Shown here in pieces: positions 1,418-34,179 of a stretch of 51,108 bases of DNA (within the stretch, counting starts at the first letter, position 1; each line of letters begins with the position of its first letter). Made by a program: the position numbers and the translations under genes. Source of the stretch: Candidatus Microgenomatus sp. (lineage in GTDB: Bacteria; Patescibacteriota; Microgenomatia; UBA1400; PJMF01); NCBI GenBank assembly GCA_020724725.1, contig DYGL01000003.1:1-51108 (forward strand), read 5' to 3'. The notes beneath the pieces are model-generated. The model searched no databases. It was given only the letters and a program-made list of their open reading frames with translations, and was not told the DNA's origin.

Positions 1418-2241
1418 AATTTAATTTTACCCTCTCGCTGCCACAAATTCTTAATTTCTTGTTCTTCTTTGTCGTATTTACTTTTTAAACTAGGTTTTTG
1501 TTGTAGTTCCCAAACCTGAATATAAACCATCATGCGATTCATACCTTGTACTAAAGCTTCAATTAAGCCAGGCATGCCGTCTTTGTAACCCTGATTTCTT
1601 ATCGCTCGACGATAAAATTCCATCACTCCTTTGCGAATGATTGTTAGAAAGTTAACTTTTTTGACCAAAGCAGCGGCCAAAGCGCTAGCTTCTTTGATTG
1701 TCCACTGAGCACTTTTATATAAGTTGTCTTGAGTGTTGCGGTGAGTGAGATGTATCATCTCATGTTGTAGTTGATGAGCTTGACCCTTAAAAATAGGGCT
1801 CTCGTGAATGTCTCCCTCCCAAGACAGTAAGCTGTCTTTTTGAAAAACTCTAGTTACCAAATCATTCTGCCAATTTCCAAATTTAAAACGCTGACCATAG
1901 CAAACATTACTGCGACGAATGGTCATGGCTTGGCAGTCATTTTGCTCGATATGAAGCAGAATCTCTTTAGCTAGAGCTGGAGTAACTCTTTCGTCAGCAT
2001 CTACATAAAATAGCCATTCCGTCTCGACTAGACTATGTCCTTTCTCTCTCAATTTGGCAAAGGATTCATGAGCAAAATTAACGACCTTGCAGTTGTAGTT
2101 TTCGGCAATTTTAATGGTTTGATCGGTTGAACCGGTATCTAGAACAATAATTTTTTCGCAAAAAGATAAAGTTTCCAAGCAAGCTTGAATCATTTTTTCT
2201 TCATTTTTGCTAATAATAATGGCAGTTAGATTTGATTGCAT
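1414..2241 (-). CDS. Glycosyltransferase family 2 (WaaE/KdtX-like)
   Basis: LTAIIISKNEEKMI...VLDTGSTDQT...FYVDADERVTP. Confidence 0.87.
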   Translation of the reverse strand: MQSNLTAIIISKNEEKMIQACLETLSFCEKIIVLDTGSTDQTIKIAENYNCKVVNFAHESFAKLREKGHSLVETEWLFYVDADERVTPALAKEILLHIEQNDCQAMTIRRSNVCYGQRFKFGNWQNDLVTRVFQKDSLLSWEGDIHESPIFKGQAHQLQHEMIHLTHRNTQDNLYKSAQWTIKEASALAAALVKKVNFLTIIRKGVMEFYRRAIRNQGYKDGMPGLIEALVQGMNRMMVYIQVWELQQKPSLKSKYDKEEQEIKNLWQREGKIKL

Positions 2242-2244
2242 ATT

Positions 2245-3168
2245 TTAGATAAAGGCTTGTTTACCCATACGACCAATAAAAACATCAAAAACAGCTTTAC
2301 GTTCACTTTTGTTGCCTCTCATTAAGATGTTAAAAGCCAAGTGTAAGGCGGTTAGTTTGCTACGCAAGGGAGCATACCTCATCGCTAAAAATAGTCTGTT
2401 TCTGGTTTGATAATATTGTTGTAGCGGTGAGCCAGCTCCACCAGTTGAACGACCAATTTTATGATAGACCACGGAGCTTGGACAATACATGACTTTAAGA
2501 CCAGCTTCCCGCACTCTCAAACTATAGTCAACATCTTCACTATAAAGAAAAAAGCGATCGTCTAGAGGGCCTACCCTTTCAATTACTTCTCTACTGATCA
2601 TCATTACACAACCAGTCGCAAAATCAGTTTCTTTTTCCTCTTCAAATTGACCGCGATCCACTTCATCTATGCCAATGTGATAAGAAAGTAAGTTGGTCCA
2701 GTCTACCTCTCCACCAACATACCAGATAACTTTGCCTTTCTCTTGTTCACTATAAGAATTTTCAAAGTATTCGTAATTTTTATAGAAATAAATTTTGGAA
2801 GCAGCTAAACCAATTTTTGGATCACGTTTCATCATTTTGTAGAGCTCTTGTAAGAAATCCTTGGTGACGATAGTGTCAGAATTGAGTAGCAAATAATAAT
2901 CGCTGTCATAATGGTCAATAGCGTGCTGAATGCCTAAATTATTGCCACCTGAAAAACCAAGATTGCTTTCACTGCGTAAAAGATCGACTTTGGTATTTTT
3001 TTTGAGAAAAGGCTTGGTAAATGTCAATAAATCTTTAGAACCATTGTCGACTACTACAATTCGGTAATCGAAACCAAGGTGCTCAATTTGACTTAGAGAA
3101 TCTATGGTAGCTTTAGTGTCATCTGGAGTGTTGTAGTTAACAATGATAATTGAAATGTGATTTTTCAT
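2245..3168 (-). CDS. Glycosyltransferase family 2 (rhamnosyltransferase/WcaA-like)
   Basis: ISIIIVNYNTPDDTKATIDSL, LLLNSDTIV, FLYSEDVDYSLRVREAG. Confidence 0.88.
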   Translation of the reverse strand: MKNHISIIIVNYNTPDDTKATIDSLSQIEHLGFDYRIVVVDNGSKDLLTFTKPFLKKNTKVDLLRSESNLGFSGGNNLGIQHAIDHYDSDYYLLLNSDTIVTKDFLQELYKMMKRDPKIGLAASKIYFYKNYEYFENSYSEQEKGKVIWYVGGEVDWTNLLSYHIGIDEVDRGQFEEEKETDFATGCVMMISREVIERVGPLDDRFFLYSEDVDYSLRVREAGLKVMYCPSSVVYHKIGRSTGGAGSPLQQYYQTRNRLFLAMRYAPLRSKLTALHLAFNILMRGNKSERKAVFDVFIGRMGKQAFI

Positions 3169-4082
3169 AGATTAAATTTTCTTTTGCAAAATGCCAGAAA
3201 CTTAGCCAAACCCTTCTTTTCTTTAATTTCCAAACCTCTTACCCAGTAGTTTAACTCTTTTTGGAAATGACGCAAATCTTTGAGTAATTCGCTCGTTTGG
3301 TTTTTTTCTAAACTTTTTTGATTTTCTAAGCGGTCAAAAATCTTCATTTGGACGGTCATTTGATAAACAGCTTGCATTAAGCTTAGGTACAAGCCTCTAA
3401 CTCCATCTTTATAACCTTCTTTGGCAAAAAATCTGCGCAAAAAATCATCGCTAAAAACTTGCAAAAGACTTGACTCTGAAATAGAAAAATATTTTTGTTT
3501 AGCTTTTTGCAGCGCTTCAATGTCGGTATATCGATCAAAACGCGCTAAATAATCTTTAGTATCCACATAGTTGTGATGCAAAAGAGCCAAGTTTTCTTTT
3601 GCTGGTAAAACTTGGGCTTTGTAGCCATTTTCAATCACTGGCTGAGCATGAATTTGCTCGCCCCAACTTACCAAGCCGTTTTTAAAAAAGCGCAGTTGAT
3701 AATCTGGCCACCAACCTGTGTGTTGCATCCAATATCCGCTAAAAATATTTTTACGAGGCAAATAATAAACATCTCCTAGATCTTTTTGATCAATTCTTTG
3801 CAATTCTTTGGCTAGGCTAGGCACTACTTCTTCATCAGCATCCAAAACTAAAATCCAATCTTTAGTCGCCTGAGCTAAAGCAAATTTACGCACTGGTTCG
3901 ACAAAAAGAGAATCTTCTTTGTAGTCAAGAATTTTGGAGCAATATTTGCTAGCCTTTTCTTTGGTCTGATCAGTGCTTTTGATATCTACCAGAATCACCT
4001 CATCAGCAAATTGAACAGAACTTAAAGTTTTGACGATGGTGGATGCTGAGTTTTTGGCAATCACTACTGCTGAAATTGACAT
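3165..4082 (-). CDS. Glycosyltransferase family 2
   Basis: ISAVVIAKNSASTI...LVLDADEEV; similar architecture to 1414-2241. Confidence 0.87.
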   Translation of the reverse strand: MSISAVVIAKNSASTIVKTLSSVQFADEVILVDIKSTDQTKEKASKYCSKILDYKEDSLFVEPVRKFALAQATKDWILVLDADEEVVPSLAKELQRIDQKDLGDVYYLPRKNIFSGYWMQHTGWWPDYQLRFFKNGLVSWGEQIHAQPVIENGYKAQVLPAKENLALLHHNYVDTKDYLARFDRYTDIEALQKAKQKYFSISESSLLQVFSDDFLRRFFAKEGYKDGVRGLYLSLMQAVYQMTVQMKIFDRLENQKSLEKNQTSELLKDLRHFQKELNYWVRGLEIKEKKGLAKFLAFCKRKFNL

Positions 4083-4123
4083 AAAGAGCCATTTCTTGGT
4101 TTCGTTAGAGATGTATTGATAGT

Positions 4124-4864
4124 ATGATAGCAGTTGTCATGAAAAAACTTAAGTCTCTATCGATTTTTTTTCCTGTTTTTAATGAAGAGGCTAATTTAGA
4201 AGTTTTGCTAAATCAAGCTTTACGCATCACTCCAGAACTTGCCAAACAATACGAGTTGCTAATCATAAATGATGGCAGCACCGACGATAGCCTTAAAATT
4301 GCCCAAAAAATAGCAAAAAAACATCCAGAAGTTAGGGTTATTTCTCATCCGAACAATTTGGGTTATGGCGAAGTGCTCAAAACCGGCATCAAACAAAGTC
4401 AGTGTGAATGGATTTTTTGGACTGATAGCGATTTGCAGTTTGATTTGGCCGAACTTGCCAATTTAATCAAAGAAAGTCAAAAGCACCAAGCAATCATTGG
4501 CTATCGCAAAAAAAGAGTAGAAGGAATTTTTAGACATTTTAATGCCAATTTATTCAAACTCTACATTGATCTGCTTTTCAGAATTCAGGTTAAAGATATT
4601 GATTGCGCCTTCAAACTTTTTAGGGCTGATTTACTAAAAAAATTGAAATTAAGTTCTGGTAGTGCCTTTACTAGCGCTGAGATTCTCTACTTGCTCAAGA
4701 AAAAAGGAATCAAATTTAAAGAAATTCCCGTTACTCATTATCCTCGACTCTATGGTCAAGCTACTGGCGCCAATTTTAGTGTTATTGCCAAAGCTTGTTT
4801 AGAGGCTTTGACTACCTATTTAAAGATTAAGCTTTCTTCTCTAAAATCTAAGGCAAGCTCATGA
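4124..4864 (+). CDS. GT2, polyprenyl-phosphate (dolichol-phosphate-mannose synthase-like) glycosyltransferase
   Basis: SIFFPVFNEEANLEVLL, LIINDGSTDDSL, WTDSDLQFDLAEL; start may be the internal ATG at 4139. TGA stop overlaps next ATG. Confidence 0.86.
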   Translation: MIAVVMKKLKSLSIFFPVFNEEANLEVLLNQALRITPELAKQYELLIINDGSTDDSLKIAQKIAKKHPEVRVISHPNNLGYGEVLKTGIKQSQCEWIFWTDSDLQFDLAELANLIKESQKHQAIIGYRKKRVEGIFRHFNANLFKLYIDLLFRIQVKDIDCAFKLFRADLLKKLKLSSGSAFTSAEILYLLKKKGIKFKEIPVTHYPRLYGQATGANFSVIAKACLEALTTYLKIKLSSLKSKASS

Positions 4865-29718: not shown

Positions 29719-29789
29719 TCCCGGGTAGTGAAATGGCATCACCACTGACTCTGAATCAGTTATTCTAGGTTCGAATCCTGGCCCGGGAT
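29719..29789 (+). tRNA. tRNA-Gln(CTG)
   Basis: Hand fold: acceptor TCCCGGG/CCCGGGA, D stem GTGA/TCAC, anticodon stem ACTGA/TCAGT with loop CTCTGAA (anticodon CTG), T stem CTAGG/CCTGG with loop TTCGAAT. No encoded CCA. Confidence 0.93.
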
Positions 29790-29794
29790 CATTT

Positions 29795-30517
29795 TCAAAC
29801 AGGAGTTGCAGATATTTGCATTTTACCGGCACTAAAAATAGTTGTTTCGAAAGCTCTTTGCACTTTTAAGACCGCATTTTTTCTTAAACTTTCAAATGAA
29901 TCCAATAAGCTATTTTTATTTTTATCTAGCTCTGCAATTTTACTTTTAAATTTTATTTCTATTCCTTGCATGGTGCTTCCCAATAAACCAATTCCTTCTG
30001 CTTCAGCTTTGGACTCATTTAGAGCTGCTTCGTGAGCTAGACGCTCTTCTTCAATTTTGTTAAGTTGTTCAGCCAAAAAAAGCTGCACATAATACAAAAC
30101 TCTATAGTTTATTTGTTCCCAAAATTCTGTGAGCTCCACGGCTTCTTGTTTAAGCTCCATTTTGGCTAATAATTCCATTTTTTCTAACTCCACAAAAACT
30201 GGCATAGCCAAAAGAGATAGAGGCAGACCAAACATTCTTCTAAGTTCGGTTGCAGTGTTTTCTTCCACCACTTTTTCTTGAATAGAAGCAATCTTTTGGT
30301 CTAAACCATCAATCAACCAAGAACCGGCCTGAGTGATAATTTGCTGCCATTGAAAAGCTTCTAAACCAAATTCTTCCTTCAACTCAAAACCGAGGCTATC
30401 TAGTGCTGATTGGAGATCAATTTTATTTAAAGCAGTCCAGTCTTGATTCATCCCAACTGGATCAACTCCAATACTTGAAGCCATTTCCAAAGCATTGCGA
30501 CTTTGTTTTTCCGGCAT
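29795..30517 (-). CDS. Uncharacterised helical 240-aa protein downstream of riboswitch-like leader
   Basis: ORF with SD (AAAGGATTAAAATG); charged helical sequence, no recognised family. Confidence 0.75.
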   Translation of the reverse strand: MPEKQSRNALEMASSIGVDPVGMNQDWTALNKIDLQSALDSLGFELKEEFGLEAFQWQQIITQAGSWLIDGLDQKIASIQEKVVEENTATELRRMFGLPLSLLAMPVFVELEKMELLAKMELKQEAVELTEFWEQINYRVLYYVQLFLAEQLNKIEEERLAHEAALNESKAEAEGIGLLGSTMQGIEIKFKSKIAELDKNKNSLLDSFESLRKNAVLKVQRAFETTIFSAGKMQISATPV

Positions 30518-30587
30518 TTTAATCCTTTCTTGACTCTAAAAAAGAGTCCTTAAATTATTAATTGCCGTGGCTTCTTGGTACAAAAAA

Positions 30588-30605
30588 GCTCCCTTCGTAG
30601 GGAGC
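30588..30605 (-). terminator. Rho-independent terminator in the leader of 29795-30517
   Basis: On minus strand: GCTCCCT-ACGA-AGGGAGC followed by TTTTTT (30582-30587); 7-bp perfect stem. Confidence 0.85.
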
Positions 30606-30644
30606 ATCGTTTAAAATTGCGTCAAAAAAATTAACTCGATGCTC
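30602..30644 (-). promoter_or_regulatory. Putative antiterminator stem
   Basis: GAGCATCG (minus, 30644-30637) perfectly pairs CGATGCTC (minus, 30609-30602); shares GCTC with the terminator 5' arm, so the two are mutually exclusive. Confidence 0.65.
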
Positions 30645-30659
30645 GTCAAGAATGTCTCT

Positions 30660-30740
30660 TTTGCTGAAGATCGGACTAAATCCAAAAAGGAAATCACCGT
30701 TGCGGCACAGTCGCAGATTTTCACTGCGTTCCACAGCAAA
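30660..30740 (-). ncRNA. Cobalamin-riboswitch-like aptamer (compact)
   Basis: Minus strand TTTGCTGTGGAACGCAGTGAAAATCTGCGACTGTGCCGCAACGGTGATTTCCTTTTTGGATTTAGTCCGATCTTCAGCAAA: closing stem TTTGCTG/CAGCAAA, GGAA + P3 CGCAG/CTGCG with TGAAAAT loop, CTGTGCCGCAACGGT core and AGTCCGA, matching the remembered RF00174-type consensus. Confidence 0.78.
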
Positions 30741-30760
30741 TAACAAGTTAACAGAAAAAA

Positions 30761-30766
30761 ATTATA
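30761..30766 (-). promoter_or_regulatory. -10 element (TATAAT) upstream of the riboswitch-like RNA
   Basis: Exact TATAAT on minus strand, 20 nt before the aptamer closing stem; no clear -35. Confidence 0.5.
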
Positions 30767-30782
30767 GAATCAATCATTAAAA

Positions 30783-31637
30783 TTAAAACTCAAACCCCTT
30801 CATCTTCTCCTTTAACCTGGAAAAAACTTTATCTCTAAAAGAAATGCTATTGAAAAAAGCTTGAGTAAGGCTCAAGGAAAAATTTTCCTGACCAAAAACT
30901 AATTGACGATATTTCTTTTGCAAAACAAAAAATAATTGATTTAAAAGAGAAAATGATTTTTTAACTCTGTATCGTCCGAATTTATAATTATCATAAAAAA
31001 ACAAATAATTTTTCAACCAAGGATTAGCATTTAAAAATTGTTTTTTAAAATCGGCCACGTCATAAACAAAATTCATTTGCAAAATCTCATAAGCCTCATA
31101 CAAGCTTCTTCTCTCTTCGCTGATTACTAAATCATTCTCATCCAGCCACAAGTTGAGGCACCAAGCATTACTGTTTTCCTTTTCTGGTCTCTTATCCTTT
31201 AATTTAGTCAGTAAAATCAAAATAAAGCGAGTTAACCACAAAGTATTGTGTTGACAAATGATCATAAAATCTAAATCATCGTCTTTTTGAGCATTATCAA
31301 CGGCTGTAGAGCCAGTCAGAACCACAGCTTTAACAAAAGGCACTTTTTTGATCAAATCAACAAAGTTTTGAATTTCTTTCTTTTTGATCGAAATGAATTT
31401 AGCTCTTTGCAGACGATTTTCTAAATCTCTTTTTTTTAAGAAAAAATATTGTCCATCACTTTGAATTAAAGATTGGCTAATCAATTTTCTTAATGAATTT
31501 TCTATTTTTTTTGAAGAAATGAAAATTTTTTCTTGACCCTTAGCGAGACGCTCAAAAATTTCCTTTTTACTCAAAGCGAAAGAAAAACAACTGCTGTAAG
31601 CCAAAGTTAAAAATACTAAGCGATCTTGTTCATTCAT
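30783..31637 (-). CDS. Winged-helix-like N-terminus plus nucleotidyltransferase-fold protein
   Basis: VVLTGSTAVDNAQKDDDLDFMII matches NTase GS...DxD pattern; N-terminal region HTH-like. Confidence 0.65.
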   Translation of the reverse strand: MNEQDRLVFLTLAYSSCFSFALSKKEIFERLAKGQEKIFISSKKIENSLRKLISQSLIQSDGQYFFLKKRDLENRLQRAKFISIKKKEIQNFVDLIKKVPFVKAVVLTGSTAVDNAQKDDDLDFMIICQHNTLWLTRFILILLTKLKDKRPEKENSNAWCLNLWLDENDLVISEERRSLYEAYEILQMNFVYDVADFKKQFLNANPWLKNYLFFYDNYKFGRYRVKKSFSLLNQLFFVLQKKYRQLVFGQENFSLSLTQAFFNSISFRDKVFSRLKEKMKGFEF

Positions 31638-32454: not shown

Positions 32455-33048
32455 ATGCTAGATGAGAGATTTGTAATTTTAGGAGCTTTAATTTCCTTTT
32501 ATGGTGGCCTTAGTTACCTTCTTGATACTATCAAAGGTAAAAACAAACCCAACCGTGTAACTTGGTTTTTGTGGGCCTTAGCTCCCCTCATTGCCTTTAG
32601 CGCTGAGTTAGAAAAAGGAGTTGGTTTGACAGCTCTGATGACTTTTATGGCTGGCTTCAATCCTCTGATGATTTTAATCGCCTCTTTTGTAAACAAACAA
32701 TCCTACTGGAAACTAAATAAAATGGATTATGTTTATGGTTCTATTTCTATTTTTGCAATTATCATCTGGAAGATCACTGGCGAAGGTAACCTTGCCATTC
32801 TTTTTTCCATTTTGGCTGATGGTTTTGCTTCTATCCCAACAGTCATCAAATCTTATCGTCAACCAGAAACAGAAAGTAGCAATATTTATCTATTTGCTAT
32901 GATTAATGCTGGCATTGCCCTACTCACCATTAAAGACTGGACTTTTGCTCACTACAGCTTCCCTGCTTATATCTTTTTACTTTGTGCTTTGATTTATAGC
33001 TTGGTGAAATTTAAATGGGGTGTGAGACTAAAGGCCGAAGTAAAGTAA
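32455..33048 (+). CDS. Small multi-TM protein (possible PQ-loop-like)
   Basis: About 7 hydrophobic segments, GLSYLLDTIKGKNKPNRVTWFLWALAPLIAF. Confidence 0.6.
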   Translation: MLDERFVILGALISFYGGLSYLLDTIKGKNKPNRVTWFLWALAPLIAFSAELEKGVGLTALMTFMAGFNPLMILIASFVNKQSYWKLNKMDYVYGSISIFAIIIWKITGEGNLAILFSILADGFASIPTVIKSYRQPETESSNIYLFAMINAGIALLTIKDWTFAHYSFPAYIFLLCALIYSLVKFKWGVRLKAEVK

Positions 33049-34155
33049 AATTGAATCTAAAGTTTTTTGAATATCCTGTTCTTTGGCTGAGTCATTTTCT
33101 AAAATCCAAAGTTTACCCTGACCATATTTAGCAATGTCATCTTCCAAATGTTTTTTCTTATTAAGAAAATTATATTGACTTTGCAATCTTCTTTGAATTT
33201 GTTCTTGATTTAAGCCTCTACCAAGCAGGCGTTCTTGTTGAACTTTTTCACTAACCGATAAAAGAAGCATGTTGTAGTTCACCAACTGACTCATTGAAGC
33301 TTCAACCAGCAAAGCGGCATTAAGAAAAATCAAACCTTTTTTATCTTTAAGTTCGCGACGCAAACGCACCAGAATTGGAGTAGCCATGATTTCGTTAAGT
33401 TTTTTCAACTTTTCTTGATCAGCAAAAACAATTTCTCCCAAAACCTTACGATTAATACTACCATCGGCCTTGGCTACTTCAGCTCCAAAAAGATCAGTGA
33501 TTTGTTTGCGCACTAAGGCGTATTTTTCTTCCTGCAAATCTTCTTGAATTTGCCAAGACAAATGATCGAGCTCAATATTGTAGGCTTCAAGTCCTTTTTT
33601 TCTGGCCAACTCAAGCATTTTTTCTCCCACATAAGACTTGCCTGAACCAATTTCACCAGTCAAACCTACAAGATATTGACCACTAATTTTGGCTTCAACA
33701 CACTGTTTAACGTAAGCTGGCACGTAATCTTGGATCAAGCCTTGTTCACGTTGAATGTCTTTGACTGCACTAGAGCTAATGTGAGCTAACGAAGGTTTAG
33801 CAAATAAAATAAAGGTATCAATTCCTAATTGCTGACTTTCGCCTAAACTATGTAAACTCATTTCGTATTCAAAATCCTTGCTACTGCGCACTCCTTTGAC
33901 TATAACGTCAATGTTGTTTTCATAAGCAAAGTCAACCAACATGCCGGTAAAAGACATCACTTCTACATTTTTAAGAAATAATAAAGATTTTTTCGCCATC
34001 TGAGTTCTTTCCTCCAAGGAAAAGAGATAACTTTTGGCTGGATTGACACCAATTGCCACCACCAAACGATCAAAAATCTTGGCTGCTCGTTCAATAATGT
34101 CGAGATGACCATAAGTAATCGGATCACCAGAAAAAGCGTAAATAGCTGATTTCAT
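33028..34155 (-). CDS. coaD-coaE: Bifunctional phosphopantetheine adenylyltransferase / dephospho-CoA kinase (CoaD-CoaE fusion)
   Basis: MKSAIYAFSGDPITYGHLDIIERA...VKGVRSSKDFEYE...SSSAVKDI (CoaD) continuous with VGLTGEIGSGKSYVGEKM P-loop (CoaE). Confidence 0.88.
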   Translation of the reverse strand: MKSAIYAFSGDPITYGHLDIIERAAKIFDRLVVAIGVNPAKSYLFSLEERTQMAKKSLLFLKNVEVMSFTGMLVDFAYENNIDVIVKGVRSSKDFEYEMSLHSLGESQQLGIDTFILFAKPSLAHISSSAVKDIQREQGLIQDYVPAYVKQCVEAKISGQYLVGLTGEIGSGKSYVGEKMLELARKKGLEAYNIELDHLSWQIQEDLQEEKYALVRKQITDLFGAEVAKADGSINRKVLGEIVFADQEKLKKLNEIMATPILVRLRRELKDKKGLIFLNAALLVEASMSQLVNYNMLLLSVSEKVQQERLLGRGLNQEQIQRRLQSQYNFLNKKKHLEDDIAKYGQGKLWILENDSAKEQDIQKTLDSILLYFGL

Positions 34156-34179
34156 CACCTAAATTATAACATTGGTAAA

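Follow-up and report, generated by a model that had tools for sequence, protein, structure and literature searches.

Cobalamin riboswitches of class IIb are defined by GGAA in junction J3/4 and UCU in junction J6/3 (PMC11260477). The metE riboswitch of Priestia megaterium is an OFF switch that has been dissected by mutation: a kissing loop stabilizes the P13 stem, whose 3′ side, when free, instead forms pairs with the terminator's 5′ arm (PMC10653944). The class IIb element ahead of ppe2 in Mycobacterium tuberculosis is compact, stands on a gene of uncertain function, acts at translation, and lacks the UCU motif (PMC11260477). In the open-access literature, no published cobalamin riboswitch or B12 work was found for the Candidate Phyla Radiation (CPR, or Patescibacteria). 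The subject here is a leader on the minus strand of a 51,108-nucleotide stretch of Candidatus Microgenomatus sp. (contig DYGL01000003.1, positions 1 to 51,108), called the window. This leader is very probably a genuine class IIb-type adenosylcobalamin (AdoCbl) riboswitch that has a terminator as its expression platform and serves specifically the gene family of a 240-amino-acid orphan protein. That judgment covers the riboswitch and its OFF mechanism; the exact role of the protein lies outside it.

The RNA appears to be a new member of a known riboswitch class, and the orphan families behind it appear uncharacterized. With RF01482 and class IIb it shares the core, the closing stem, P4-P5-P6, the GGAA and UCU junctions, the predicted L5 and L13 loop partners, and the lack of a large peripheral domain; it differs in a family-wide conserved L13 motif, GACGAGCAUC, and in its Candidatus Pacebacteria-like CPR host. 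As in P. megaterium metE, a kissing loop is predicted to stabilize P13, and the 3′ side of P13 and the 5′ arm of the terminator form the antiterminator. The metE target is a methionine synthase, whereas the target here is an orphan, and the L5-L13 kiss needs a bulged A. The likeness to ppe2 lies in compactness and in the uncertain function of the gene, although the target proteins are unrelated.

The first-pass annotation had read this region as a B12-riboswitch-like leader of compact, class-II-like form, and the elements it quoted all lie where it placed them on the minus strand, 30766-30517. In a cmscan of the whole window, minus-strand positions 30759-30617 match RF01482 (AdoCbl) with 54.1 bits (E 3.1e-7; gathering score, 50), which bears that reading out. 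Two matches in the window exceed their gathering scores, this one and one tRNA, and the RF01482 site is the only one in the genome, a 715-kb draft that is 84% complete. RF00174, the class I Cobalamin family with P8-P12 arms, reaches 20.8 bits against a cut-off of 31.5 at the same site, as expected where large peripheral arms are absent; no other RNA family comes near its own cut-off. The score and the missing arms rule out class I, and the gathering score, covariation, and synteny rule out a chance or degenerate match. Both class IIb junction motifs are present (GGAA at 30732-30729, UCU at 30670-30668) and the P8-P12 arms are absent, which refines the class-II-like form to class IIb and predicts selectivity for AdoCbl. 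The parts are as follows, with pair counts taken from 21 leaders of the window's own family.

30617-30759, minus strand: aptamer and P13 of the AdoCbl class IIb-type riboswitch (RF01482)
30766-30761, minus strand: TATAAT
30740-30734 and 30666-30660, minus strand: P3 closing stem of 7 bp, UUUGCUG/CAGCAAA; double-sided compensatory change in 6/6 tested pairs
30732-30729, minus strand: J3/4, GGAA, directly 5′ of P4
30712-30728, minus strand: P4 hairpin CGCAG-UGAAAAU-CUGCG; 100% of cells paired, 4/5 pairs changed on both sides
30696-30710, minus strand: P5/L5 and B12-box region CUGUGCCGCAACGGU (CTGTGCCGCAACGGT in the DNA letters first quoted), invariant in aligned leaders
30709-30701, minus strand: P5/L5 within that region, with L5 UGCCG at 30707-30703; register as in the RF01482 alignment
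30699-30697 and 30674-30672, minus strand: P6 core CGG/CCG; register as in the RF01482 alignment
30677-30671, minus strand: AGTCCGA
30667-30671, minus strand: J6/3, AUCUU, holding the class IIb UCU motif (PMC11260477)
30635-30650, minus strand: P13 hairpin CUUGA-CGAGCA-UCGAG with L13 loop CGAGCA; covaries
30644-30637 and 30609-30602, minus strand: antiterminator GAGCAUCG/CGAUGCUC, overlapping the terminator and P13
30582-30605, minus strand: intrinsic terminator GCUCCCU-ACGA-AGGGAGC (hairpin 30605-30588) followed by UUUUUU; terminator scan
29795-30517, minus strand: orphan target gene, 240 amino acids, soluble and all-helical (homologues; AlphaFold2), ATG at 30517, Shine-Dalgarno AGAAAGG

Covariation among these leaders, a check that the first-pass annotation had proposed, is strong. 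Over the 20 pairs tested, 14 change on both sides and 89.3% of cells are paired. The score for covariation reaches 0.538; shuffled controls give 0.210 (0 of 500 shuffles reach the observed value) and slid ones at most 0.151. The shuffle comparison is inflated by relatedness, while the slid control preserves relatedness and also collapses. Within P13, four of six pairs show double-sided changes. L5 (UGCCG) can pair with L13 (CGAGCA) over 5 bp with A30643 bulged, and the loop is almost invariant; its sole change, in genome G060, falls on the bulged base.

The linkage between switch and protein family is strict. A profile of 13 homologues was run against 88 genomes of the order, 42 from the window's own family and 46 from outside it. 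Homologues of the 240-amino-acid protein occur in 16 of the 88, all within the family (16/42 against 0/46), and in 16/16 a riboswitch lies just upstream, so that the homologous leaders that were to be sought stand before every homologue. Three of these genomes (G017, G020, and G060) were absent from the profile, and the G060 switch was located only afterwards. Among the 33 family genomes sampled first, 22 carry the switch: 15 before the short orphan, six before a long orphan of 570-650 amino acids, and one (G027) on a contig that ends within a short open reading frame (ORF) behind it. Every intact riboswitch of the family precedes either the 240-amino-acid protein or this unrelated long orphan. 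The 11 switchless genomes have neither, and the two orphans never occur together in one of the 33. Profile comparison detects no homology between short and long orphans and gives no support to the short one as a truncated long one.

Carriers of the orphan include the Candidatus Pacebacteria metagenome-assembled genomes UBA1364 and UBA6180, CP011212 (GW2011_GWF2_28_16), and one such genome labeled Parcubacteria group. From these named relatives, the lineage is Candidatus Pacebacteria-like CPR (Microgenomates), and the bacterium is ultra-small and probably symbiotic. The complete chromosome CP011212.1 (locus L105), labeled candidate division TM6, groups with the window's genus and is probably a mislabeled record.

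The computed stems of the expression platform are mutually exclusive. The antiterminator has 4 nucleotides in common with the 5′ arm of the terminator and takes up L13 together with the 3′ side of P13, and it thereby excludes both structures. Antiterminator and terminator are both found, overlapping by 3-4 nucleotides, in 13 leaders, and the L13 motif GACGAGCATC recurs in 22 leaders of the family. The terminator that had been noted ahead of the gene is recovered by the terminator scan at 30605-30588. In the window, the energies of P13, antiterminator, and terminator are -2.6, -11.1, and -11.5 kcal/mol, which rank as the P. megaterium metE model demands (PMC10653944). By analogy with that system, AdoCbl-induced termination is the expected action. 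With AdoCbl bound in the aptamer, L5 would kiss L13 and stabilize P13; GAGCAUC would then be occupied and the antiterminator blocked, and the GCUCCCU/AGGGAGC-U6 terminator would halt transcription. When AdoCbl is scarce, GAGCAUCG would pair with CGAUGCUC, the terminator would lose its 5′ arm, and the 240-amino-acid protein would be made. As judged from sequence, then, the ligand is predicted to be AdoCbl, the direction OFF, and the protein a product of B12 shortage.

The target is a real gene, as homologues in 15 other genomes and a codon-position substitution pattern of 2<1<3 between genus members indicate; the same evidence rules out a spurious ORF. The protein carries the motif LR-x-x-FG-x-P-xxx-LA-x-PV-x-x-x-L. 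Searches of Pfam and NCBIfam return no relatives, and profile searches of the PDB return weak coiled-coil matches only, in agreement with the earlier view that it belongs to no recognizable family. Nor does it match a curated model of the known families for B12 transport, biosynthesis, or isozymes. The AlphaFold2 model is all-helical (predicted local distance difference test, pLDDT, 79; predicted template modeling score, pTM, 0.64); its two longest helices meet in a turn that holds the conserved FG-x-P...A-x-PV motif. Foldseek finds nothing significant for this model among the PDB and viral models (best E 0.13, AhlC), and the low-confidence model of the long orphan has no significant fold match in the PDB. 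A phage origin was considered, and PHROGs offers nothing convincing for it.

The genome has one recognized use for B12. Its 730-residue ribonucleotide reductase (RNR) resembles the AdoCbl-dependent ribonucleoside-triphosphate reductase (RTPR) of L. leichmannii (PDB 1l1l, E 3e-36; TIGR02505, E 4e-68). At 230 bits against a curated cut-off of 340 for TIGR02505, it is best called RTPR-like, and in the window's family it is not beside the riboswitch. This RTPR-type class II RNR is the only B12 enzyme recognized in the window genome. RTPR homologues occur in 28 of the 33 family genomes, with 90-98% identity within the genus, and a PduO-type adenosyltransferase in 27, including all seven other genus members. 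In the window's own 84%-complete draft no PduO-type adenosyltransferase was found, and a PF02310 protein was found neither there nor elsewhere in the genus. Four family genomes (G009, G011, G014, and G030) without RTPR and without PduO-type adenosyltransferase also lack switch and orphan, a coincidence with a chance of 0.008 by a hand calculation that ignores phylogeny.

Elsewhere in the order, in sister families f2, f4, f5, f6, and f9, the switch leads a series of orphan, nrdR, and class II RNR. At loci L075, L079, L090, L094, L098, L099, and L100, the orphan in this series is the long one, often with a C-terminal zinc ribbon; several of these nrdR-class II RNR loci hold two or three large RNR ORFs in tandem. 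At L097 (G020:C7), class I nrdB-nrdA lies behind a second site, a weak one of 25 bits, and G020 also has an RTPR-like gene. At L078, L080, L081, L084, L088, and L095, the orphan is followed by proteins of 1000-1400 amino acids with membrane segments; the one at L081 ends in a Peptidase_M23 domain, and those at L080 and L088 show metallopeptidase-like motifs by eye. A weaker AdoCbl match (34 bits) at L093 (complete CPR genome G034, 2000-4750) precedes genes for DUF4430, an alpha/alpha-toroid protein, and DUF6580. DUF4430 with an alpha/alpha toroid is presumably the layout of transcobalamin and intrinsic factor, and these genes appear to make up a transcobalamin-like operon for B12 uptake.

Repression by AdoCbl usually governs transport, synthesis, or B12-free isozymes. 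Since the orphan is no isozyme of anything recognized and synthesis is not expected in a reduced genome, acquisition or supply leads. The 240-amino-acid protein may well be a new B12-linked protein that acquires or supplies B12 for the AdoCbl-dependent RNR, a proposal we rate as plausible yet somewhat short of probable. For this CPR (Microgenomates-type) order as a whole, we tentatively suggest that the two mutually exclusive, apparently unrelated orphan families, always first behind the same switch, could make up a B12-shortage system not described before. It would provide either a new kind of B12 acquisition or a control of ribonucleotide reduction gated by B12, in cells apparently dependent on external B12 for making DNA. 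Several observations weigh against the leading account of switch and protein. The near-invariance of the kissing loop leaves it little covariation support, and a few family leaders (for example L076, L078, and L080) have no clear terminator in the scan. The protein has no signal peptide, transmembrane segment, or known B12-binding or transport motif. Seven family members retain RTPR without either orphan, so the orphan is not essential for B12 use, and an RNR-related role would also fit the tie to class II RNR seen across the order.

In such a role, the orphan would act in reducing ribonucleotides or in the response of DNA synthesis to B12 shortage, for instance by binding, protecting, or braking class II RNR, rather than in uptake. 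The gene order of the five sister families favors it, as do the standing of RTPR as the sole recognized B12 enzyme and the weak second G020 switch before nrdB-nrdA. We consider it somewhat unlikely. Against it, orphan and RNR are not neighbors in the window's family, the short and long orphans are not homologous by profile, and identity within the genus is 90-98% for RTPR and only 39-56% for the orphan, unlike a tight partner. That the orphan is instead a surface or host-interaction protein, turned on by B12 starvation to exploit the host cell, is unlikely: it lacks an export signal, none of its fold matches reaches significance, and the large protein is not adjacent in the window's genus. In its favor, several sister genera carry, after either orphan type, a gene for a protein of 900-1400 amino acids; some of these proteins have membrane segments, and one has an M23 peptidase domain. 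The orphan also evolves fast, and its fold weakly resembles long bundles of helices, ClyA/AhlC-type pore formers among them (best E 0.13). As for the switch, cobalamin riboswitches accept several corrinoids (PMC9600662), and the M. tuberculosis ppe2 variant is not AdoCbl-selective (PMC11260477). Binding of methylcobalamin, hydroxocobalamin, or another corrinoid in vivo is nevertheless improbable here, given both class IIb motifs, AdoCbl as the best model, an AdoCbl-dependent type of B12 enzyme, and a PduO-type adenosyltransferase in seven of seven genus mates. A corrinoid riboswitch that activates is known in one case (PMC10653944), and if P13 were the antiterminator, AdoCbl would turn this gene ON, as at A. 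halodurans cobT. This is very improbable, because P13 (30650-30635) lies clear of the terminator (30605-30588) and so cannot compete with it, and a separate conserved antiterminator overlapping both is a repressing design.

Most CPR proteins have no known function, and cofactor acquisition in these reduced cells is largely unknown. A switch ahead of one orphan family in 16/16 genomes is a direct functional label, marking the protein as governed by B12 and as a likely new component in the way these bacteria meet B12 shortage. The findings point to cells that sense AdoCbl, draw on it to make deoxynucleotides, and control genes by riboswitch. CPR genetic tools also gain in this switch a ready B12-responsive part.

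Around the system lie the following further features.

30532-30548, minus strand: small hairpin GACUC-UUUUUUA-GAGUC, shortly before the Shine-Dalgarno AGAAAGG
29719-29790, plus strand: tRNA-Gln (CTG) found by cmscan, a convergent neighbor closing the region, outside the system

The TATAAT pointed out at the start of the leader is present in the letters. As a promoter it lacks support: the promoter scan finds no sigma-70-like site of at least 9/12 on the minus strand here, and on reading the relatives' leaders no TATAAT is seen at that place. In relatives, hairpins differing in sequence stand by eye at the place of the small hairpin, before AGAAAGG. Between terminator and Shine-Dalgarno (30580-30530, minus strand), a CCACGGCAATTAAT-like block is kept in several relatives. 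Upstream of the riboswitch, the minus-strand gene at 30783-31637 has a weak nucleotidyltransferase (Pol-beta/MntA-like) domain; upstream genes are unrelated in other genera, which suggests that it is outside the system. Farther along the window (33028-34158, minus strand), a single 376-amino-acid gene fuses a phosphopantetheine adenylyltransferase (CoaD-like) to dephospho-CoA kinase (CoaE).
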